IMG/VR virus record: IMGVR_UViG_3300022858_000603
Coordinates: 1 to 20,347 of that record
Source: a virus
DNA length: 20,347 nucleotides
Strand: one strand, 5' to 3'
A program made the position numbers and the translations under genes. The notes under the pieces are model-generated. The model saw nothing but the letters and a program-made list of their open reading frames with translations. It did not search any database and had not been told where the DNA came from. Numbering within the stretch: the first letter of the stretch is position 1; each line of letters opens with the position of its first letter. Positions 2,999 to 18,107 of this stretch are shown here, piece after piece.

Positions 2999-5926
2999 AT
3001 GGCGTTTACAGATTATCGTGGCTTAAATATTTACAACGGTATACCTACTGGCCCTGCTGGCGTGGTATTGAATGACGACTTCAGTGAGCTAGCAAATCGA
3101 AGCGGGCCTATCCTTTCGGCTGCGTTTGACCCAACAGTCAATGATGACAGTTCAAATACCGCAGGTAATGGCAAGTTATATCAGTATTCAAAGTGGCTAA
3201 ACACTATGGATAATGGTTTATTCATTTGTGTGGACGACGCCCTGGGGGCCGCTGTCTGGCACCAAATACATTGGGATGGCATCGCGGCAGCCGATTTTAA
3301 TGAGACAGTCACATTTGATGGTACTCAAGTAATTTATCAGCCAGATCAGGTCGACTTCGCTTGGACTCTTATTGTCGGCGACGGCGGTGGTGCATTAACC
3401 CATGCTGGGGGGTCGGAAGGAAGATACAATACGGTTTTTGGTATTGATTCGTTTAACTCTACTACAACTGGCGACAGTAATGTTGTGGTCGGGCCGCTCG
3501 CCCTCCAAGACAACACTACTGGGAATCGAAACCTTGCTATAGGCTACGCAAGCCAGCAAAACTGCATCACCGGTAATTACAACGTGGCAATCGGCGACGA
3601 AGTACTGTTTACAAATACTGCTGGCGACAGGAACGTTTGTATTGGAACTCGGGCTGGGCAAGCCATTCAGGGGAACGACAATGTTTGTCTTGGACATATG
3701 GCGGGTCGCGCTGAAATGGGCAGTGATAAGCTGTATATCTCTAACACTGACACCACAAAGCCTTTGATTTATGGTGACTTTAACACCGACATTGTTAAGA
3801 TTCATGGCGATCTGTACGTACCCAGTGACAGTAAATTCATCTCATTAGGGGCAGTGTCTACTGATTGGCAATTGCAGTGGGACGGAAGTAATGCCGTTCA
3901 AACAATTGTTGCCGGAGAATTTAGGTTCGAGGGTGGTAACGTTAATTTACGTACAGATAACCAGAAAATTTACTTTGGTGACTCAGAAGATGCATATATC
4001 GAGTTTGACGGTAGCTCCTTGAATATCAAAGCGAATGAAGATAACATAAATGACACAATGACGTTGATTGGTGCAACAGTCCAAGTGGATGGTAAGATTC
4101 TAGCAACTGACAAAGTTCAATTCACGCAGACGGACGGCGATGAGTATATTGATTCGCTAGCTGATGGCTTCATGGATTATGGAGCCACAACGGCTCACCG
4201 CTTCCTCGCAGACGTGAAGCTCACAAGTGATACAGACAAGCTCTACTTCGGAGCCGGGGATGACGCAACAGTAACATTTAATGGTAGCGAACTAATAATT
4301 ACTGGAAACACAGTCTGTGCAACTGACACTGTACAGTTAGTAGGGACCACGATCACTAACACAGGTAAGATTCTAGCAACTGATAAAGTCCAATTCACGC
4401 AGGTTGACGGCAATGAGTATATTGATTCGCTCAACGACGGCTTCGTTGATTATGGGGCAACAACCGCTCACCGCTTCCTTGCAGACGTGAAAATCACAAG
4501 CGATACAGACAAGCTCTACTTTGGGGCCGGTGACGATGCAACAGTAACATTTAACGGCAGTGAGCTAATAATTACCGGAAACACAGTCTGTGCAACTGAC
4601 ACTGTACAGTTAGTAGGGACCACGATCACTAACACGGGTAAGATTCTAGCAACTGATAAAGTCCAATTCACGCAGGTTGACGGCAATGAGTATATTGATT
4701 CGCTCAACGACGGCTTTGTTGATTACGGGGCCACAACCGCTCACCGCTTCCTCGCAGACGTGAAAATCACAAGCGATACAGACAAGCTCTACTTCGGAGC
4801 CGGTGATGATGCTTCCCTCACGTACAATGGAACCGATCTACTAATCAATCCTCGCGCAGTAGGCTCGGGAAATACTTCCTTTACAGGAAATATTGGAGTC
4901 GGAACTGCTAACTGTGAGTATCTGGTGGATATGAATGCTACTGGCGCGGGCACAGAAGGAATGCGAATGTACAGCAATTCCTTTCTGGAATGGAAGATGC
5001 AAGTAAATAGCAACACGGCTGCCGCGCGTTCAATGTTTAGGGGAACACGTTCGCGTGGAACTAAAGCTACCCCCCTTGCCGTTCAAAGCGGAGACTATAT
5101 TTTCTCCTTTTTGGCAGATGGGTACGGAACCTCTTATGCTGGCGCTGGTGAAATTGATGTTATTGCTACTCAGAATTGGACCGTCGCGGCGCGAGGGAAT
5201 AAATGGGTATTTCAGAATGTGACAAACAATACCATTGCGCTGAAAGAGGCGCTCGTAATTGAGCATGATGGTGTTATTCAAACTATAAATAAAGTCTCAT
5301 TCACTCAGACGGATCAAAACGAGTATATTGATTCACTTGCTGATGGTTTTATGGATTACGGGGCCACGACTGCTCATCGTTTTGATAACGATGTGAAAAT
5401 TACTCAGGATAACGATAAACTATACTTAGGGGCCGGCGATGATGCGTCTATCACATATGATGGGGTAGACCTTCTAGTCGACCCCCGTGTAGCGGGTACT
5501 GGTAACACTGTCTTCACCGGGGATGTTAGCCAGATGATAACATTAGGTGGATTCAACCGCCGCATCTCAGAAGCAGTGGGGGTAGCTACGGCAAACACGA
5601 CGTTTGATATTCAAGTAAACGTCCCCACTGGCTCAAGGATACTAGGTTGCCAGTTGCGAGTTGACACTGCCTTGACATCTAGTGACGGTGGCGTAGCCTG
5701 GACGGCTGCCTACCTTACAGGGGCAACTCAACAGATAGGCACTGGGTTGGCCTTTGCTCAAAATACGAAGCACAATCAAATGTTCGATGCCAACGCCGCA
5801 ACGGACATCACGAGTGGTGAGGTAGATATCCAAGTAACTTGTGACGCTGCTAAAACATTCATTGCTGGCGGCGTCGTGCGGGCTATAGTTTATTATGAAA
5901 ACTTTACCACAATGGCTAATGTATGA
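2999..5926 (+). CDS. Phage tail fibre / receptor-binding protein with tandem repeats, 975 aa
   Basis: The start is fixed by AGGAG at 2988-2992. The N-terminal about 100 residues would be the virion-attachment part. Residues about 145-235 contain YadA-head-like left-handed repeats (NVVVG, NLAIGYAS, NVAIGDE, NVCIGTRAG, NVCLGHMAG), a fold of trimeric adhesins and phage fibres. From about 275 onward a roughly 91-residue unit recurs (core KVQFTQ, EYIDSL, DYGATTAHRF, DKLYFGAGDDA, TFNGSELII). It is near-identical in successive copies around residues 365-605 and diverged before and after. The C-terminal 120 residues form a separate beta domain (from GGFNRRISEAVGVATANTTF), perhaps the receptor-binding tip. 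I see no S74-type intramolecular chaperone. It overlaps the next gene by ATGA. The fibre role is well supported; the receptor is unknown. Confidence 0.85.
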   Translation: MAFTDYRGLNIYNGIPTGPAGVVLNDDFSELANRSGPILSAAFDPTVNDDSSNTAGNGKLYQYSKWLNTMDNGLFICVDDALGAAVWHQIHWDGIAAADFNETVTFDGTQVIYQPDQVDFAWTLIVGDGGGALTHAGGSEGRYNTVFGIDSFNSTTTGDSNVVVGPLALQDNTTGNRNLAIGYASQQNCITGNYNVAIGDEVLFTNTAGDRNVCIGTRAGQAIQGNDNVCLGHMAGRAEMGSDKLYISNTDTTKPLIYGDFNTDIVKIHGDLYVPSDSKFISLGAVSTDWQLQWDGSNAVQTIVAGEFRFEGGNVNLRTDNQKIYFGDSEDAYIEFDGSSLNIKANEDNINDTMTLIGATVQVDGKILATDKVQFTQTDGDEYIDSLADGFMDYGATTAHRFLADVKLTSDTDKLYFGAGDDATVTFNGSELIITGNTVCATDTVQLVGTTITNTGKILATDKVQFTQVDGNEYIDSLNDGFVDYGATTAHRFLADVKITSDTDKLYFGAGDDATVTFNGSELIITGNTVCATDTVQLVGTTITNTGKILATDKVQFTQVDGNEYIDSLNDGFVDYGATTAHRFLADVKITSDTDKLYFGAGDDASLTYNGTDLLINPRAVGSGNTSFTGNIGVGTANCEYLVDMNATGAGTEGMRMYSNSFLEWKMQVNSNTAAARSMFRGTRSRGTKATPLAVQSGDYIFSFLADGYGTSYAGAGEIDVIATQNWTVAARGNKWVFQNVTNNTIALKEALVIEHDGVIQTINKVSFTQTDQNEYIDSLADGFMDYGATTAHRFDNDVKITQDNDKLYLGAGDDASITYDGVDLLVDPRVAGTGNTVFTGDVSQMITLGGFNRRISEAVGVATANTTFDIQVNVPTGSRILGCQLRVDTALTSSDGGVAWTAAYLTGATQQIGTGLAFAQNTKHNQMFDANAATDITSGEVDIQVTCDAAKTFIAGGVVRAIVYYENFTTMANV
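4091..4812 (+). repeat. 273-bp tandem repeats inside the fibre gene
   Basis: Units start at 4091, 4364 and 4637, each with GGTAAGATTCTAGCAACTGA, at an exact 273-bp period. The third unit is only partly kept and diverges after about 4810. Where units two and three overlap, the differences I can see are scattered single bases at third codon positions (for example TTC/TTT, TAT/TAC, GCA/GCC). More diverged copies of the same protein unit lie before (about 3830-4090) and after (about 5280-5500). This is recent in-frame duplication, or homogenisation by recombination. Confidence 0.95.
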
Positions 5927-10822: not shown

Positions 10823-10993
10823 ATGGCACGATGCACTGATTGTGCGGAAAAGGCCGCTGCCCGGCGAGTCAGGCGATCATTGCTTGGACTCCCACCTATA
10901 AGGTCCGCACGGGCTGCTGAGGCTCGTGCGCGGCCCGGCAAGCGTAAGGACCGAGTTGCGTTAGCTAAACGCACGCAAGAGGGCACGGTATAG
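10823..10993 (+). CDS. Possible small basic protein with CxxC, 56 aa
   Basis: An ATG at 10823 opens a 56-codon frame ending TAG at 10991-10993. The product starts MARCTDCAEKAAARRVRRSL and is very rich in Arg, Ala and Lys, with one CxxC pair. The GC content is clearly higher than in neighbouring genes. It lies beyond the operon hairpin, has only a weak purine stretch upstream, and its last 33 bases overlap the 3' end of the convergent exonuclease gene. It could be a nucleic-acid-binding phage protein, or a chance frame in GC-rich DNA. No promoter of its own is evident. Confidence 0.4.
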   Translation: MARCTDCAEKAAARRVRRSLLGLPPIRSARAAEARARPGKRKDRVALAKRTQEGTV

Positions 10994-11587
10994 CTGCGCC
11001 TCTGCCCTGGCGTCACATAGTGCGTCGTGAGCCCTCTCTATCTCGATGTTAAACTTCTTACACATCGACCCCAATGCCACGCTGGCAAAAGGCTGAGCTT
11101 TCCCATGATAGTTTGACACGTCATTTATAGATATGGCGAACGCCATCGAGTCGCGGGCCAACGGATGAAACAAGCTATTGTGCGTTTCAGGGCCGAGCCA
11201 ATTCGAGAGAAAACCCTTCTCGAACGCCCAATTATGGGCCAGTGGCACCATGCTTTTCCTAAATGGTAAATTGAGATTGATGAACCATTCATCAAGTAGG
11301 TCGGCGGCCCGCCATTGATCTGGGCAGTTATTGACCAAATTCTCAAGTGACAATCCGTTGACTTGCATGGATTTCTTGCTTGCTCGCTCTGGGTACTCTG
11401 GAGCGATGTCCATATAGAATGGCAGTATATCCTTCACGAACTCCAGATTGGAGTCTAAGGGCTGAACTGCTATCTGGACTATCTCATGCCAACCTGCAAT
11501 CAGGCCGGTCGTCTCTACATCGACGGCGCACAGTAGGTTGCCATTTAGGTTGATTAAGGATTCGGGAATGTAACATTCTTCGGGCAT
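10961..11587 (-). CDS. DnaQ-like (DEDDh) 3'-5' exonuclease, 208 aa
   Basis: The three exonuclease motifs of the DEDDh family are visible: Exo I CAVDVETTGL (D23, E25), Exo II PLAHNWAFEKGFL (residues 116-127) and Exo III ERAHDALCDARAEAQLY (H187, D192). In Exo II the usual Asp after the Phe is Glu (E123), a conservative but notable change at a metal-binding position. Such proteins remove nucleotides from 3' ends, as proofreading subunits or stand-alone repair/RNA-processing nucleases. No polymerase is in view, so the partner is unknown. The start overlaps the upstream gene's stop (TAATG), with AGAGGA 6 bases before it. It is the last gene of the - strand operon. Confidence 0.85.
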   Translation of the reverse strand: MPEECYIPESLINLNGNLLCAVDVETTGLIAGWHEIVQIAVQPLDSNLEFVKDILPFYMDIAPEYPERASKKSMQVNGLSLENLVNNCPDQWRAADLLDEWFINLNLPFRKSMVPLAHNWAFEKGFLSNWLGPETHNSLFHPLARDSMAFAISINDVSNYHGKAQPFASVALGSMCKKFNIEIERAHDALCDARAEAQLYRALLRAFS

Positions 11588-11840: not shown

Positions 11841-12437
11841 TTATTTGTAGTGGTAAGTGTAAGGTAGTGGAAAACCAGATTCGTAAAAGTCAGCTAGTTT
11901 GTTGGCCCAAAATAACAACTCTTCCAACCTGCCTGAGTGACCGACGACACGGTCCCAATGTTCATAGTTAAGTAATGCCTTGTCAGCGACGGTATCTCGT
12001 GGTTCGTAGCCGGGGCGAATGACTTTGATTAGTGTGCCCCCTGCATATAAAATTGCGTCAGCTTCATTCTTGAATCTGACATCTGGGATTATAAGTACGT
12101 CAGCGTTATGATCTGTATTTAACAGGTAGTCGAGCCAAGTCCTGTCATAGACATTGTCTCTAACAGCTTTGGTGCCGAACGCTACCCAGACTTCTACGGG
12201 AGTCATACCTAAATCAGGTAAAACAATGTCCCGGTCCTTGGCTCCTTCTAATGTTTCGTAATGTTCGGGTGATTTCATCCCGGCCCATGCATACAGTTCA
12301 TAGGTGATCTGTTTCAGCTTCCATGCTAAAGGTCTCTTCAAGACACGAAAGCCACGGTCATGTAGTATGCGAGCCGTATAGTTGGCGAGTGTGTCTTTCC
12401 CTGTCCGTGAATAATGGCCTAACCCTAGAATGAACAT
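11841..12437 (-). CDS. Deoxynucleoside monophosphate kinase-like protein, 198 aa
   Basis: The N-terminus is a P-loop, LGHYSRTGKDTLA (G7 to T16, with K14), as in the AAA-type dNMP kinases of phages, of which the T4 gene 1 product is the known example. Further matches are GMTPVEVWVAFGTKAVRDNV followed by W101, and DVRFKNEADAI (D119, R121), both characteristic of that family. The enzyme phosphorylates dNMPs to dNDPs to feed phage DNA synthesis and can act on modified hydroxymethyl-type nucleotides; whether that applies here is unknown. GGAG lies 7 bases before the start, and the start overlaps the 58-residue upstream gene by 13 bases. Length is close to the family norm. Confidence 0.85.
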   Translation of the reverse strand: MFILGLGHYSRTGKDTLANYTARILHDRGFRVLKRPLAWKLKQITYELYAWAGMKSPEHYETLEGAKDRDIVLPDLGMTPVEVWVAFGTKAVRDNVYDRTWLDYLLNTDHNADVLIIPDVRFKNEADAILYAGGTLIKVIRPGYEPRDTVADKALLNYEHWDRVVGHSGRLEELLFWANKLADFYESGFPLPYTYHYK

Positions 12438-12604: not shown

Positions 12605-15316
12605 TTATTTTCGTACTTTCAAGCGACCGTCGCTCAGGAAGAGCGGGGGTTGGTCACGATTTTCAGGGGGGTTAAGGGTGATGTTGCCAAAGTAACGTTT
12701 GTTAGCGGTGCCTTTTCCCATTGGACACTCTTTAGGCATGTTCTGGAGTATCTTAGGCTTTGTCCAGGTTATTTTCTCATAGTCCGTTAGGCCGTCGCGG
12801 AACCGATCAACAAAATCTTTGACCAGCACGAGTGAGCCTGGGTTAAGGTAGCAGCCATCTTGAAGAAAAGCTTGTAGTGGGTCTTGATTGGTCGCTTGGG
12901 CAGTCGTCTTGCCAAGGGTGTCAACAACTGGTATCCGCAATCTTGAATTTGATTCCGGAAGTGACAAACCCATAAGAGTTGCCATGAAATGTGGTGCTTC
13001 TTCTTCTAACTTTTGTAGTAAGGTATATTTAGGGATTTCCCTTTCCAGTGAAGCGACATGCATCATTGTAATTCGTGTGTCACCAGGAAAAATCGGGCAA
13101 GCATCCTTCTCGTTGGCTGTTTGGATAAAGTGTAGACAGTTTCGCTGCTGGTAGACTTGCAACCCTTTCGCGTGGATGCTAATGAACTGGCTTGTTGTCC
13201 ACTCTTTGATCTTGTTGTAGACAGCTGGGCCACGCTGCGCGATGTTGACTTCGTCAACGACTCCTAAGACGGCGTTGGCTAATTCACCATTGAAATCACC
13301 TTGGTTAGTCAATGCCCTATCAGCCTTGACAACGCCTCCAGTTGTCAAAATACTAATCGCTTCGTGGAAGATCGACTTCCCAGATTCTTGCGGTCCATAC
13401 ATAAAGAGATAAGGCAACGGCTCGAAAGGTTCTCGAATGAGGCACGCAAGCCACGCGACGAGGTATTCTTGCCCCGTCTGGATGCCCCAGTCTTTTGCCC
13501 ACTTCTGACGTTTGACAATTGAATCCAAGTCTTCTCCGCAATGCCCGAAAACCAAATCCCAGTGAGGATGCACTGGCGAAACGGTATCGGCGGGTAGGAA
13601 CTTCAACTGAGCGGCCCCGATATTCCATTGCCGACCTCCCGGATGCTCCGGGTGAAACGGCATATTAACCTTCGTCCATTGGCGAAGCACCGACTCGCCC
13701 AGGATAATATCTACCTCGGGGCCACCCAAGGCTTTGGTTTTGAGAACGTTCTTTACATTCTCGCGCGGGTGCTGAACCCAGACGCCTTCACCACTGATCG
13801 TTTTGACAAACCAGCCAGCATCTACATTCGAGGCTGTCTTGATCGAGCGAACGAGGCTATCATACTGAGTGTAGTCTCGTTCATTACCGGCAACGTCAGT
13901 ATTGATATTGAAGATGCGAACCCAAGTGCCCTTCTTCTCTTGCCAGTCGGAGAAACCACGGTCGCCCTTGTCTTTATCTATTTCGACGATTAAGCGGCCA
14001 TCTTTGTGCTTCTTTAGCATCGTGCCCCGCCCGGTGTAATCATTGTCATCCGGCAAGGTCAAGCTAGAACCGATAGCCTCGACACTTTGCCTGGCTTGCT
14101 CGGCTTCGCGAAATACGAACCCTCCTTTGACATCTTCTACGCCGCCAAGTGCCAATGCTGCTTCGGGTAGTGTAGGCTGTTTGTTGAACGCACAGTTTGT
14201 CCAACTCTTATCATCCTGTTTCCATAGCGGATGCTCGGCTACACCTTTGCCAAAGCGAAAGACTTGGAACGAACCTTCGGGACTAGGTATTAGGAAACAA
14301 TTAGGTTTGCCCTTGTCTGTACCAGTGGCAAGCGTATCAAAGAAGCCTTTTATTGGGTGCCCTTCTACCTCCCACTTGTCACATAGGTCTTTAACGGCTC
14401 TAGTATGTGTTTGCAGAAGATAATGATCCTGGAGCCAGAGAGTCGTATAACCTGATTGCTCTAATTCCTCGATGACTGCTTTATGTACATCATCAAGCGG
14501 CACGCGTGAGCGCGCGGAAGTCAAATCGTCGAGCGGGTCTTGTTCGTCATCAGAGATGCCCCGCACCCGTACCTTAGCAGTTGTGCCTTTAACGACGTCC
14601 AGATGATCTTTCCAGTTCGCAGGAATATCATCAGCAGATAGGGGTACTTTAGCCTTGCTCACCCACGCGAAACTATCCTTATTCATTTCATCGGCCCATA
14701 TCCATAGGACCGATCCGCAAACATCTAGGTGACTGCCAAACTGGAAGCCGACGTCCGCGCTCATCTTTGCAAGAACCGCTCTCGCGAGAGCAGCGTGCTC
14801 ATTATGGTTTGCTGTCTTAGGGGCGTTGGTTCGGTCGAATCTCACATGAAAGTGGAGACCGTTGCCACTTGTGGACTTGACGACATCCACGTACGGAAGT
14901 GACATGGCCTTGCTCTTTACTTCGGCTAACGCGTCGTCTGAGATGCCAGTGCCGGGGGCGTGACCAATGATTCCATCAAAATCGTAGCCTAGTGAATAGG
15001 ATTCACGATTGACCCAATTCCATCCGGTAATTCCGATACGGGCTGCATGTTGGTCTAATCTCCACGTCAGTTCTTTATCGTAGAACGTGGGCACGGTGTT
15101 GGCTTGATATGGTACACGTATGTGGCTCCATGTTTGCTTGCTATCAGTCCAAGTATTCCGTTTATCCTCTACGGGCTGACCACCAACCGCCGAGGCAAGG
15201 ATTTGTGTTTCGATTTGCTGGGAATACAAGAGGTCAATAAGCCCCGGATTCGGATGCGCGGCCTCCGGACTGTGAAGAAAATTGTCAACGGCTTGTATTA
15301 TATTTGTACCGGGCAT
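12605..15316 (-). CDS. AEP-type primase fused to SF3/D5-like helicase, 903 aa
   Basis: The N-terminal third looks like an archaeo-eukaryotic primase: motif I GYDFDG (D112, D114), motif II VKSTSGNGLHFHVRF (S150, H155, H157) and a candidate motif III around D198 (HLDVCGSVLWIWADE). After a long linker, the C-terminal part is a helicase: Walker A MYGPQESGKS (residues 639-648), Walker B LGVVDEVN (D688, E689), a sensor-type Asn in FIQTANEKDA (N735) and an Arg-finger candidate in GDTRITMMH (R748). This order fits superfamily 3 / pox D5-like primase-helicases of phages and plasmids, with a DUF5906-like helicase part. It probably primes and unwinds at the phage origin. The start follows the HNH gene stop by 6 bases, with no strong ribosome-binding site. 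Confidence 0.85.
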   Translation of the reverse strand: MPGTNIIQAVDNFLHSPEAAHPNPGLIDLLYSQQIETQILASAVGGQPVEDKRNTWTDSKQTWSHIRVPYQANTVPTFYDKELTWRLDQHAARIGITGWNWVNRESYSLGYDFDGIIGHAPGTGISDDALAEVKSKAMSLPYVDVVKSTSGNGLHFHVRFDRTNAPKTANHNEHAALARAVLAKMSADVGFQFGSHLDVCGSVLWIWADEMNKDSFAWVSKAKVPLSADDIPANWKDHLDVVKGTTAKVRVRGISDDEQDPLDDLTSARSRVPLDDVHKAVIEELEQSGYTTLWLQDHYLLQTHTRAVKDLCDKWEVEGHPIKGFFDTLATGTDKGKPNCFLIPSPEGSFQVFRFGKGVAEHPLWKQDDKSWTNCAFNKQPTLPEAALALGGVEDVKGGFVFREAEQARQSVEAIGSSLTLPDDNDYTGRGTMLKKHKDGRLIVEIDKDKGDRGFSDWQEKKGTWVRIFNINTDVAGNERDYTQYDSLVRSIKTASNVDAGWFVKTISGEGVWVQHPRENVKNVLKTKALGGPEVDIILGESVLRQWTKVNMPFHPEHPGGRQWNIGAAQLKFLPADTVSPVHPHWDLVFGHCGEDLDSIVKRQKWAKDWGIQTGQEYLVAWLACLIREPFEPLPYLFMYGPQESGKSIFHEAISILTTGGVVKADRALTNQGDFNGELANAVLGVVDEVNIAQRGPAVYNKIKEWTTSQFISIHAKGLQVYQQRNCLHFIQTANEKDACPIFPGDTRITMMHVASLEREIPKYTLLQKLEEEAPHFMATLMGLSLPESNSRLRIPVVDTLGKTTAQATNQDPLQAFLQDGCYLNPGSLVLVKDFVDRFRDGLTDYEKITWTKPKILQNMPKECPMGKGTANKRYFGNITLNPPENRDQPPLFLSDGRLKVRK

Positions 15317-15322
15317 GCTGTG

Positions 15323-16297
15323 CTATACTTGCATTTCTTGGATTGAATTCAGATTGGCAAATTCACCAAATAGTTCTTCGGCGGCTGTGTTGTATGCTTG
15401 GGCGGCATCTTCTTCGTTGTCGTGGAGTCCTAAATGTCTTTGCTTGCTATCCAGTTTGATGTAAGCTCGCCATTTCTGACTAGCTTTGTTCCAACTGACG
15501 CCTTTGTATTCGGAAGAGTATCCAAAGTATGCGGTGCGGTTCATCATGTTTTGGCGACGTGTCGCGGGGCGGAGGTTTTTACGCCTATTATTAGATGGGT
15601 CACGGTCACGGTGATCGCCATCTTGAAAATCAATAAACCCCATCCGCGCAAGAATTTCCCGGTGCATCTTTAACTTTTTACCATTAACATTCCTAGTAGG
15701 GTAGCCACCGGAAGCAGACCAGGAAAACTGCATAAGATACGCATAATCTTCTAAATCGACGCTAACGTAGCTGCCATCCGAGATGGGAATTTTCTTCTCC
15801 CCCGGTGACATATCGAGTGGCGGGTTAAGGTTGCTTCGGCAATAATCAAACTTTCCTTGGAGGTTTAAGTACCGTTTAGGCTTGTACCCCATACGGTCAA
15901 GAATGGCTACATACATCGGGAAATTCTTGCCCCCTTTGCTGCGGACAGCAAAGCCGTTCGAGGCGCACCAGCTCCACTGCATCAGATATTCATAATCCTC
16001 AAAATCAACCAGTGCTGCTTTGCCTTGGGTTAATGGAATCTCTTTCGGGCCGGGCGATAAATCCAGTGGCGGAACAAGAATATCGCGGCGGTAATCTAAC
16101 TTGTACCTGACATTAAGGCGTTTTCTCGGTGTATGGCCCATACGCTCAAGGATGACTTTATACATGCAAACCTGGGCACTCTTTTTACGCCGCTTAGCAT
16201 ACCCTTGACCGTAATACCACTTCCACTGCATCAAATAAGCATAGTCGCAGTCATCGACTAATGCGACTTTGCCTTGTGTTAGTTCAATCGTTTTCAT
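15323..16297 (-). CDS. HNH endonuclease with AP2 domain and triplicated N-terminal module, 324 aa
   Basis: Residues 1-83, 84-166 and 167-258 are three copies of one module: K-x-I-x-[LI]-x-x-G, [AS]LVD/SVD, DYxYLMQ[WF]xW, M-[YH]-x-x-IL-x-RMG. Only copy 3 carries an HNH centre: KMHREIL (H212), DGDHRDRDPSNN (H229, N236/N237), NLRPATRRQNMMNRT. In copies 1 and 2 the first His is Tyr (MYKVIL, MYVAIL) and the DGDH segment is replaced by LNVRYKLDY and LNLQGKFDY. Residues about 262-317 are an AP2 DNA-binding domain (YKGVSW, HLGLHDNEEDAAQAYNTAAE). HNH-AP2 proteins are usually free-standing homing endonucleases in phages. The start overlaps the upstream gene as ATGA; it sits directly before the primase gene. 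Confidence 0.9.
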   Translation of the reverse strand: MKTIELTQGKVALVDDCDYAYLMQWKWYYGQGYAKRRKKSAQVCMYKVILERMGHTPRKRLNVRYKLDYRRDILVPPLDLSPGPKEIPLTQGKAALVDFEDYEYLMQWSWCASNGFAVRSKGGKNFPMYVAILDRMGYKPKRYLNLQGKFDYCRSNLNPPLDMSPGEKKIPISDGSYVSVDLEDYAYLMQFSWSASGGYPTRNVNGKKLKMHREILARMGFIDFQDGDHRDRDPSNNRRKNLRPATRRQNMMNRTAYFGYSSEYKGVSWNKASQKWRAYIKLDSKQRHLGLHDNEEDAAQAYNTAAEELFGEFANLNSIQEMQV

Positions 16298-16482
16298 ACG
16301 GGTTCATCCGCAAATGGGTTCGGCAGTATCTCGAAGTCTGTTGACTCGAAACGATGCCACCCAAAGGCCATGCCCGTTTCCCAATGGTCAAATTGGGCTG
16401 TGACATGGTCAGTGTAGACTTGCACTAGGGCTTTTTCACCATATAACTTTGAACGCGTCCCGCGATAGATTCCTTGTAGCAT
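16294..16482 (-). CDS. Hypothetical small protein, 62 aa, first gene of the replication operon
   Basis: I choose the ATG at 16482 because GGAG (16490-16493) sits 7 bases before it. A longer GTG-start version from 16512 is open but lacks such a site. The product begins MLQGIYRGTRSKLYGEKALV and contains QFDHWETGMAFGWHRFESTD; it reads as a small beta-rich soluble domain (KLYGEKALVQVY, WHRFESTDFEIL) ending FADEPV. Its stop overlaps the HNH start. It is the first clear gene leftward from the symmetric control region, so probably expressed early. I do not recognise a family. Confidence 0.65.
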   Translation of the reverse strand: MLQGIYRGTRSKLYGEKALVQVYTDHVTAQFDHWETGMAFGWHRFESTDFEILPNPFADEPV

Positions 16483-16661
16483 GACTTTTCTCCAGGTTAA
16501 GTATTGTTTCACGCTGCACTATAACTGCAAGTCGCGTGCCAACAGGTATCGTTCTCAGTAATAGTGGTCTCCATACTACTTATAGTAGGCCAATTCAGCC
16601 TTTTCCGGCGCGGAAAGCAATAATAGTGTGGAAGTTTGTCTAAAGGATGGCCTCTACAACT

Positions 16662-16667
16662 ATTATA
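16662..16667 (-). promoter_or_regulatory. Candidate -10 element for the leftward operon
   Basis: On the - strand the sequence is TATAAT, an exact bacterial sigma-70 -10 consensus, beside the 15-bp inverted-repeat match. No good -35 box is found at 16-18 bases, so an activator or another promoter type may be needed. It would give a leader of about 170 bases before the first leftward gene. Confidence 0.35.
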
Positions 16668-16686
16668 ACCGTTCAGGTCGAAGAGA

Positions 16687-16726
16687 AGTAACCGTTGCAA
16701 GTAACGGAGTAACTACTGAGAGTAAC
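16687..16726 (+). repeat. Four direct AGTAAC repeats
   Basis: AGTAAC occurs at 16687, 16700, 16708 and 16721, with start-to-start spacing 13, 8 and 13 bases. Two of them extend to GAGTAACT (16707, 16720). The right arm has matching paired AGGTACTC at 17044 and 17058. Further single copies lie at 16922 (AGTAAC) and 16846 (inverted, GTTACT). They look like operator or iteron-type binding sites. Confidence 0.65.
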
Positions 16727-16731
16727 TCGGG

Positions 16732-16754
16732 AAGTCCTTGCTCTGCAAGGACTT
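16732..16754. other. Perfect 9-bp hairpin
   Basis: AAGTCCTTG (16732-16740) and CAAGGACTT (16746-16754) pair perfectly around the loop CTCTG. No T-run directly follows on either strand, so it is not an obvious terminator. It could be a protein-binding or cruciform site. Confidence 0.7.
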
Positions 16755-16795
16755 AGGAAAACTGCAATTTTTATAGTGCTCGCGTTGAATTGCTA

Positions 16796-16820
16796 TAACT
16801 TCAAATGCTGCTTGAAGTTA
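16796..16820. other. Perfect 9-bp inverted repeat
   Basis: TAACTTCAA (16796-16804) and TTGAAGTTA (16812-16820) pair perfectly around ATGCTGC. It could be an operator dyad or structured origin DNA. It lies 41 bases from the first hairpin. Confidence 0.7.
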
Positions 16821-17036
16821 CGTAAAATGTCGACGTAGAGGTACAGTTACTCGCCCAACTCAATCGCCATATAGAAAAACGTATTACTACTTTATAAAAT
16901 AAACCTTTACCGACTTGGTACAGTAACTAATTTGTTTTCCCTCAATCGTCACAAGTTCCGCCACTGTAAAGACTTAGCTCAATATCTGGAAAATGATGTA
17001 AAATTTACCATCTCCTAACCCCTTACCCTGCTTGAA

Positions 17037-17194
17037 CTTACCGAGGTACTCCGTTCCAGGTACTCTTGTTAACGGCCTTTGACCTGAACGGTTATGGCGA
17101 TTGTAAGGTCAACCCAGAGAAAAACTTTCCTATAAAACTCATTTTCCGCGCAGAAAAAGCTCCAAATGGCCGACTATAACGGTATGAGAACCGC
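17037..17194 (+). repeat. Right arm of long imperfect inverted repeat
   Basis: This is the counterpart of the left arm. The exact 15-mer appears as GACCTGAACGGTTAT at 17081-17095. The arm runs through the leader and about 29 bases into the ParB-like gene, so the matching left arm carries a degraded version of that gene's first codons (TTGGCC in place of ATGGCC). The arms are separated by about 300 bases. Confidence 0.8.
17079..17136 (+). promoter_or_regulatory. Candidate promoters for the ParB-like operon
   Basis: TTGACC (17079-17084) lies 17 bases before TGTAAG (17102-17107), a -35/-10 pair with a good -35 and a fair -10. A second -10-like TATAAA lies at 17131-17136 with a poor -35; it would give a short leader of about 20-25 bases. 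Both are in the right arm. No strong ribosome-binding site precedes the ATG at 17166. Confidence 0.35.
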
Positions 17195-18107
17195 TTTCCG
17201 TAAAATACCCGTCGACCAGCTTCGCGAGTGTCGCTTCCTGTTACGCGAACTTAACCCGCGCAGCGTCGAATACCGGGAACTCTATAACTCGATCAACTCT
17301 ATTGGGGTACTTGGCTCCTTACTAGTCAGACCAATGGGAAATGTATTTGAGATCGTTGATGGATACTGTCGGTTCAAGATCGCCAGTCGCTTGAAGGTTG
17401 ACGAGTTACCTTGTATTATACGCGAACTAACAGATGCAGAGGTCTTGACATTCCAGGTTCAAGCAAACGCGGTGGGGATAACCACAAAACCGTTAGAGTA
17501 CCTTGCCCGGCTTGAAATAATTATAGATGCCAACCCAGATTTCACCGCTGCCCAAATAGGTCACCTAGTAAATAAGAGCCCGTCATGGATGCGAGATATA
17601 CTGTCGTTGCGAAAACTCACCAAGGAAGCCGCAAAAGCAACGGCCCGTGGCGAGATGACTTTGCGAAACGCTTACGCCCTCGCCACCTTGCCGCCCAAGC
17701 TACAAGATGACTTCCTGCAACAGGCGTGCTACCTGCAAGGACGTGAATTTTGTAAAACTATCCAGATCGCGAGAAAAGCTTTCCGCGAAGCGGTGAAAAA
17801 TGGCAATATGGCCGACTATTATGCATCAATTGGGGAAGCAACCCCCTACCTGCGAACGTTCCGAGTCATTAAGAAGGAGTACTTTCATCCAGAAGCCATG
17901 CCGCAAGTTCTCACAAAAGTTGATGCAAAATCGCCAAAAGACGGATGGAATGCCTGTTTGGCATGGATTTTGCATCTTGATCCTGTTAGTATAACAACAC
18001 AGCAAAAAGACTTATTAAACAGACACCGTAAAATATTGGAGGGACAACAGACACGAAAAGCGAATAGAGACAAACTGAGACAGTTGCGTAAATCAACTAC
18101 TACGTGA
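17166..18107 (+). CDS. ParB-like DNA-binding protein, 313 aa
   Basis: Residues 12-105 match the ParB/Spo0J N-terminal domain: IPVDQLRE, ELNPRS, LYNSINSIGVLGSLLVRP, FEIVDGYCRFKIASRL, LPCIIRELTDAE, then VQANAVGITTKPLEYLARL. The canonical G-x-x-R-x-x-A nucleotide-binding box is kept in a modified form (GYCRFKIA). Residues about 125-175 are the helix-turn-helix (FTAAQIGHLVNKSPSWMRDI, LSLRKL, GEMTLRNAYALATLP). The C-terminal 130 residues are basic and less familiar, ending KANRDKLRQLRKSTTT. ParB-type proteins bind specific DNA sites for partition or transcription control. No ParA ATPase is in the window. The gene starts inside the right inverted arm, which makes that region a plausible target. The ATG at 17166 is likely; 17184 is an alternative. 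Confidence 0.85.
   Translation: MADYNGMRTAFRKIPVDQLRECRFLLRELNPRSVEYRELYNSINSIGVLGSLLVRPMGNVFEIVDGYCRFKIASRLKVDELPCIIRELTDAEVLTFQVQANAVGITTKPLEYLARLEIIIDANPDFTAAQIGHLVNKSPSWMRDILSLRKLTKEAAKATARGEMTLRNAYALATLPPKLQDDFLQQACYLQGREFCKTIQIARKAFREAVKNGNMADYYASIGEATPYLRTFRVIKKEYFHPEAMPQVLTKVDAKSPKDGWNACLAWILHLDPVSITTQQKDLLNRHRKILEGQQTRKANRDKLRQLRKSTTT

Follow-up and report, generated by a model that had tools for sequence, protein, structure and literature searches.

In the sigma regulons of phages SPO1 (gp28 and gp34, for middle and late genes) and T4 (gp55), a phage sigma factor acts at a few promoters unlike those of the host, and large blocks of genes are switched in this way (PMC9429907). Phage HK022 carries two similar elements, putL and putR, for its two early operons, which are started by PL and PR; these elements act as RNA, downstream of the promoters (PMC9378689). 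In cluster K mycobacteriophages, SAS/ESAS elements are conserved beside start codons, the SAS being a 13-bp sequence that occurs 11-19 times per genome and the inverted-repeat part being variable between genomes (PMC3203893).

The locus described here lies in a virus record of 20,347 bases, a fragment, which was analysed over its whole length and is referred to as the window. Its tail (late) genes are read rightward as far as ~10.75 kb, and a replication block is read leftward from ~16.5 kb. The block beyond, again rightward, has a ParB-like gene as its first, and the window ends ~3.2 kb past the parB start. Between the two divergent blocks are two arms that match each other in inverted orientation. 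We consider it probable that these arms are outward-pointing copies of one phage-specific promoter for the replication and parB operons, read by the same factor, likely a phage sigma factor.

As in the SPO1 and T4 regulons, a sigma-like protein and a few host-unlike promoters would switch large gene blocks, and a phage-encoded sigma-like protein was found in relatives (24 contigs), the window being a fragment. In contrast to those regulons, two of the promoters form a mirror-image pair here, at the divergence of the replication and parB genes, and no more than two or three were detected in each contig; every phage has promoter letters of its own, and the sigma-like proteins form a family distant from those known. 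The arms resemble putL and putR in being two similar elements for two operons, whereas the matched element here is DNA that ends at the predicted start site. They share with SAS/ESAS a position beside start codons and a sequence that varies between genomes, but there are two or three copies, with a -35/-10 layout. The SAS sequence GGGATAGGAGCCC is no commoner in the window than expected by chance, with a single match, at three mismatches, against an expectation of 3.7.

In the T4 middle promoters (a MotA box plus a -10) and the lambda CII promoters, a phage-specific box takes the -35 position and the -10 is of the usual kind. The box serves an activator in those promoters, whereas in the arms the phage-specific letters extend to the bases beside the -10.

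Mirrored arms in the window

An earlier note on this DNA had described inverted arms that align over ~160 bases. We aligned the reverse complement of 16520-16850 locally with 16900-17260 (match 2, mismatch -3) and obtained a score of 56, as compared with a mean of 18.9 and a maximum of 31 for 1000 dinucleotide-preserving shuffles, which confirms that the mirrored arms are real. BLAST of the window against itself returned the pair 16580-16683/17077-17179 with E = 5.5e-5. The strong core of the alignment (the two arms of the table) is shorter than had been proposed, 121 columns, and it grows to ~160-230 nt only under lax gap costs. The exact 15-bp match reported earlier was recovered as GACCTGAACGGTTAT (17081-17095 and 16665-16679), within a 19-nt block in each arm. 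These distal blocks sit ~77-95 nt upstream of the -10-like hexamers and are possible operators.

Features of the window, with the evidence for each assignment
Feature	Position	Strand	Basis
Right arm, putative promoter cassette of parB operon	17077..17189	+	71% identity to left arm; matched arms at homologous place in relatives
Left arm, putative promoter cassette of replication operon	16568..16683	-	same as right arm
Distal conserved block CTTTGACCTGAACGGTTAT, right arm	17077..17095	+	95% identical to 16665-16683 minus
Distal conserved block CTTCGACCTGAACGGTTAT, left arm	16665..16683	-	matches 17077..17095
Spacer between strong arms	16684..17076		contains hairpin 16732-16754 and GAGTAAC/GGTACTC motifs
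Predicted -35-position box CGCAGA, right promoter	17149..17154	+	conservation peak -23..-19; overlaps conserved TTTCCGCGC; unlike sigma70 consensus
Predicted -10-like hexamer GACTAT, right promoter	17172..17177	+	after TGGCC; identity profile
Predicted -35-position box CGCCGG, left promoter	16605..16610	-	identity profile
Predicted -10-like hexamer TACTAT, left promoter	16582..16587	-	identity profile
ParB-like gene	17184..18107	+	307 aa from proposed start 17184; ParB_N 3.6e-11
Second right-operon gene, 232 aa	18137..18835	+	conserved beside parB; 25-61% identity in most relatives
First clear left-operon gene	16294..16482	-	ATG 16482 after CTGGAGAAAAGTC; phrog_27079 5.7e-6
HNH/AP2 homing-type endonuclease, left operon	15323..16297	-	phrog_99 4.6e-43, AP2 2.4e-7
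Primase/helicase, left operon (DUF5906, SF3-like)	12605..15316	-	query that retrieved relatives
Deoxynucleoside monophosphate kinase, left operon	11841..12437	-	phrog_139 7e-24
Exonuclease, left operon	10961..11587	-	phrog_192 9.3e-22

The spacer had been described as A+T-rich, with hairpins. The first part stands, since 16735-17036 has 38% G+C as compared with 47% for the window; as for hairpins, one strong one was found (10-bp stem, z = -4.2). Its stem is a perfect palindrome closing a loop of 3 nt (AAGTCCTTGC TCT GCAAGGACTT), and it has no counterpart in the right arm. At the inner side of the arms, a cluster of GAGTAAC, GTTACTC and GGTACTC motifs (16699-16730, 16845, 16923, 17045 and 17059) is enriched relative to the rest of the window and represents candidate regulator sites. 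Elsewhere in the window, near-identical tandem repeats with a 273-bp period occupy 4091-4845, inside a long tail/structural gene (2999-5926).

The arms had also been taken for leader regions of the outward genes. This was not quite right: they stop at the start codons and have the appearance of promoters rather than of transcribed leaders. A start of the parB frame at 17166 would fall within the promoter. The closest relatives resemble this longer frame from about residue 14 onward, i.e. past 17184, so the start is probably 17184 and not 17166. The expected +1, ~7 nt past the right -10, is position 17184 as well, an ATG, and the parB mRNA may be leaderless, as predicted from this spacing. On the left, the frame of the first clear gene opens at GTG 16512. 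No Pfam or PHROG family matched the 232-aa protein of the right operon.

Matched arms and their promoter-like layout in relatives

A DNA search of viral contigs with the arm found no related locus; three pattern matches were examined and none was related. Peptide queries with ParB and the whole primase brought up no relative, apart from a contig of the window's own phage, which fell short of the region. The ParB, 232-aa and primase proteins of the window had no close match among 50,697 phage records, and isolate phages offered only remote primases, in Casjensviridae, with a different layout. The conserved helicase stretch within the primase served as the query that retrieved relatives; the second row of this query was an invented variant used solely to loosen the search pattern. 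It gave 80 loci, mostly fragments, the closest of which besides the window's own phage were 70-83% identical over the stretch. In most of the loci long enough to show it, homologues of the ParB-like and 232-aa proteins are encoded upstream of the primase in divergent orientation, and the region is therefore comparable across the lineage.

For each distinct IMG/VR phage with this parB-primase divergence, the best inverted match in the parB-to-primase region was compared with equal-length windows of the same contig. Matched inverted arms were found in 40 of the 48 phages, a count that includes three (L033, L036 and L066) added with a smaller permitted gap, for which shuffled sequence was the yardstick; such a gap reveals matched arms in several short intergenic regions. 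Thirty-seven regions beat every control window of their own contig. A score of at least 35 was reached by 31 of the 48 regions vs 5 of 2639 control windows, and a score of at least 40 by 29 regions vs none of the controls. Phages that keep the gene order and lack the arms, the case that the earlier note had held to count against it, are a minority only (8 of 48). By BLAST, the arms of the window had no match to those of relatives. Judged from these comparisons, each phage has an arm sequence of its own, and what the lineage has in common is the matching of the two arms.

Other repeats were also seen in this region. In L044 (2443-2998) and L045 (5515-6070), the arms are ~240 nt long and contain tandem TTCAATTGTTCAT-type repeats mirrored in both, which could be a binding-site array. 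In the distant relatives L037, L041, L060, L090 and L095, the intergenic regions have palindromes of the form GATTTGATT...AATCAAATC within the arms or close to them, perhaps leader hairpins.

The outer ends of the relatives' arms hold an A+T-rich core such as GGCGTAATATAGAAGTATAGG, followed in many by a ribosome-binding site and start codon, and the matched element stops shortly before these signals of the outward genes. Motif EM over all arms gave TTTgGcgTAaTATA. Because it misplaced some phages, the identity profile was instead anchored by hand, on a TAnnAT hexamer. In 22 phages, arm-to-arm identity peaked at -23..-19 (0.87) and at -7..+5 (0.94), the second peak being partly selected, as anchors were chosen by eye, and the first not. 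Identity dipped to 0.59 in the spacer between the peaks (Wilcoxon p = 0.001) and was 0.42 upstream of the boxes. The two boxes are 17 bp apart, which is the spacing of a bacterial -35/-10 promoter. Features of sigma70-type promoters are present, a distance within 16-18 bp and a -10 near TATAAT, with the shared TAnnAT being the anchor chosen by eye. A -35 near TTGACA was not found in the arms; this box varies by phage, and is CGCAGA or CGCCGG in the window. Four bases immediately before the -10 are phage-specific too, and matched between the arms (0.95-1.0).

The arms of the window are among the weaker ones (71%), and their -35 boxes are less alike than the phage average. Their matched region reaches ~-95, beyond the need of a promoter. 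Within parB, AATATGGCCGACTATTATG at 17795-17819 (+) resembles the promoter core, with 5 mismatches at 25 informative positions, as compared with 8 for the best of the shuffles.

The two arms changed together between phages. Identity of the -35 box was 0.83 within a phage and 0.29, the chance level, between phages. In the 28 pairs drawn from eight phages in the closest group, positions -7..+6 contained 161 concerted differences and no arm-specific inherited ones, as compared with 23 arm-specific inherited differences upstream and 23 in the 5' leader, the counted cells being non-independent events.

Whole contigs were then scanned with their own element, and a third copy was found in G004, G007, G008, G013 and G018; many relatives have no visible third copy. 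This copy stands immediately before an orthologous gene of ~180 aa in five of the seven contigs having that gene (G004, G007, G008 and G018, and also G011), and the G013 copy comes before a second ParB-like gene. The block behind the third copy of G007 includes terminase, portal and tape measure genes. The ~180-aa gene (L097 16362-16895, L107 948-1484 and orthologues) heads this third block; its product has the pattern RRCxAxTxxGQC...CxxH and no clear known family. The bipartite profile, the concerted change and the third copy support the suggestion, made in the earlier note, of a duplicated promoter/operator set that co-regulates two operons.

A phage sigma-like factor or the host sigma factor as the possible reader

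Matches to Sigma70 region 2 were found in G016 and, weakly, in G021 and G022. The sigma-like family was assembled by an iterated profile, followed by a profile search of the contigs. Most long relatives carry such a gene. It was tabulated for 24 contigs, all of which have it on the same strand as parB and 11-35 kb downstream of that gene, the distance being measured across the contig end in two of them. Many members match Pfam Sigma70_r2, Sigma70_r4 or Sigma70_ECF, mostly below the cut-off, with some above it, such as L163 (Sigma70_r2), L165 (Sigma70_ECF) and L086 (Sigma70_r4). For the model of the G007 protein (gene at 93,365-94,066; mean pLDDT 74), the best PDB matches were all entries for sigma factors or RNA polymerase initiation complexes, with a fold-search probability of up to 1.00 and a target-normalised TM of 0.77 for a region-2 fragment. 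Examples of this divergent family, which is present across the uncultivated lineage, are L137 1300-1989, L138 975-1616 and L147 3001-3705.

Neither the window nor the contig that overlaps it, both fragments, shows a sigma-like gene; that of the window's phage, if any, would lie beyond the window end. Presence of the gene does not discriminate, as it also occurs in phages in which arms were not detected (G030 and G045). Four arm-bearing contigs (G008, G013, G029 and G031) yielded no sigma-like gene. A T7-like RNA polymerase gene (PF00940) was not matched in 24 contigs, in a search made without a positive control.

In the mechanism that we propose, the promoter would combine a box at the -35 position with an extended -10 of the type NNNN-TAnnAT, separated by a 17-bp spacer, plus some upstream sequence. 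The left copy would start the leftward replication operon (the small gene, HNH, primase, kinase and exonuclease) and the right copy the rightward parB operon, so that both blocks would be switched on together. One specificity factor would read both copies, and for this reason the copies would be matched within a phage and change jointly between phages. This factor would most likely be the divergent sigma-like protein, whose gene follows 11-35 kb downstream in the operon of parB; with the gene in that position, the promoter pair would also act back on the factor. A further gene block would be started by the third copy in several relatives, and in G007 this block includes the virion genes. Alongside the matched arms, the bipartite profile, the third copies and the sigma-like gene with its position, which are features of the sequences themselves, we infer that transcription starts at the arm ends, that it depends on the sigma-like factor and that the blocks are co-regulated in time. 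Sigma dependence is suggested by the presence and position of the gene and by the logic of the co-changing boxes.

A serious rival is that host RNA polymerase with host sigma70 reads these promoters, with phage specificity conferred by an activator or repressor of the phage that binds the upstream blocks and the -35 position, as with T4 MotA or lambda CII. The ParB-like protein is one candidate for such a regulator and heads one of the operons, as autoregulators often do. The -10 resembles TATAAT and is the sole part common to the phages (partly through the choice of anchor), and the upstream blocks are matched to ~-95 in some phages, including the window. However, the phage-specific, matched bases just upstream of the -10 fit a private sigma factor better, and the sigma-like gene is at a constant place in 24 contigs. 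We give the host factor an appreciable chance of being the one that is used, though clearly a lower one than the phage sigma factor.

Other explanations for the matching arms

It is possible, but unlikely, that gene conversion or repeated duplication of inverted copies keeps the arms alike, with no special selection for matching. In L024 and L027, the two arms are indeed almost the same over 77-98 nt, even in parts for which no conservation is required. In contrast, L018 and L019 differ by GGCG to GAGC (or the reverse) beside the -10 (-3..-1) in both arms, while arm-to-arm differences in the flank, and some in the spacer, are common to both phages. Whole-arm conversion is disfavored because it would have wiped out these ancestral arm-specific differences. 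The bipartite identity profile and the match of the distant third copy, in another gene block, also argue against it.

A bidirectional replication origin and a centromere site for ParB had both been offered in the earlier note. We regard such a function as slightly less probable still, even though the arms are located between the primase/helicase and ParB-like genes, the short GAGTAAC/GGTACTC motifs are repeated there, and the long arms of L044 and L045 contain tandem repeats. The GC-skew check showed no switch at 16.8 kb, and the element recurs as an unpaired single copy before another gene block; an origin thus received no positive support. Similarly, the centromere was unsupported as the reason for the arms, since the matched part is promoter-like and not an array of palindromic sites, and the matched core showed no palindromic site common to the relatives.

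Transcribed leaders that share an RNA fold, for put-like antitermination or translational control, are very improbable: conserved stem-loops in such a leader were not found beyond a weak two-sequence signal (a consensus fold of the core with 2-3 compensatory pairs, z = -2.7, equalled by 4 of 500 shuffles), single arms fold like shuffles (z ~-0.9), Rfam gave no match, and an element directly upstream of a ribosome-binding site and start codon would be little transcribed. The long-range pairing that the consensus fold suggested was rejected, the single folds being ordinary and the promoter layout leaving little of the arms to be transcribed. A search for tRNAs found nothing.

Returning to copies of one phage-specific promoter, there is a broader picture that we hold tentatively, at somewhat short of even chances. 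It is of a large, uncultivated lineage with its own fast-evolving sigma-like factor and a promoter code private to each phage, in which two or three promoters, two of them mirrored, start nearly the whole genome. Factor and promoter would co-evolve so fast that the boxes of distant members are unrecognizable, with gene order and layout staying fixed. For finding promoters without transcription data, the approach would be to seek sequence that does not differ between the two arms of a phage but does differ from phage to phage. If the promoter reading is true, the arms would act as the chief switch of gene regulation in a group of phages whose ParB, 232-aa and primase proteins, as represented by the window, have no close match among 50,697 phage records, and the group would offer a natural series of matched promoter/factor pairs for the study of how sigma specificity evolves.
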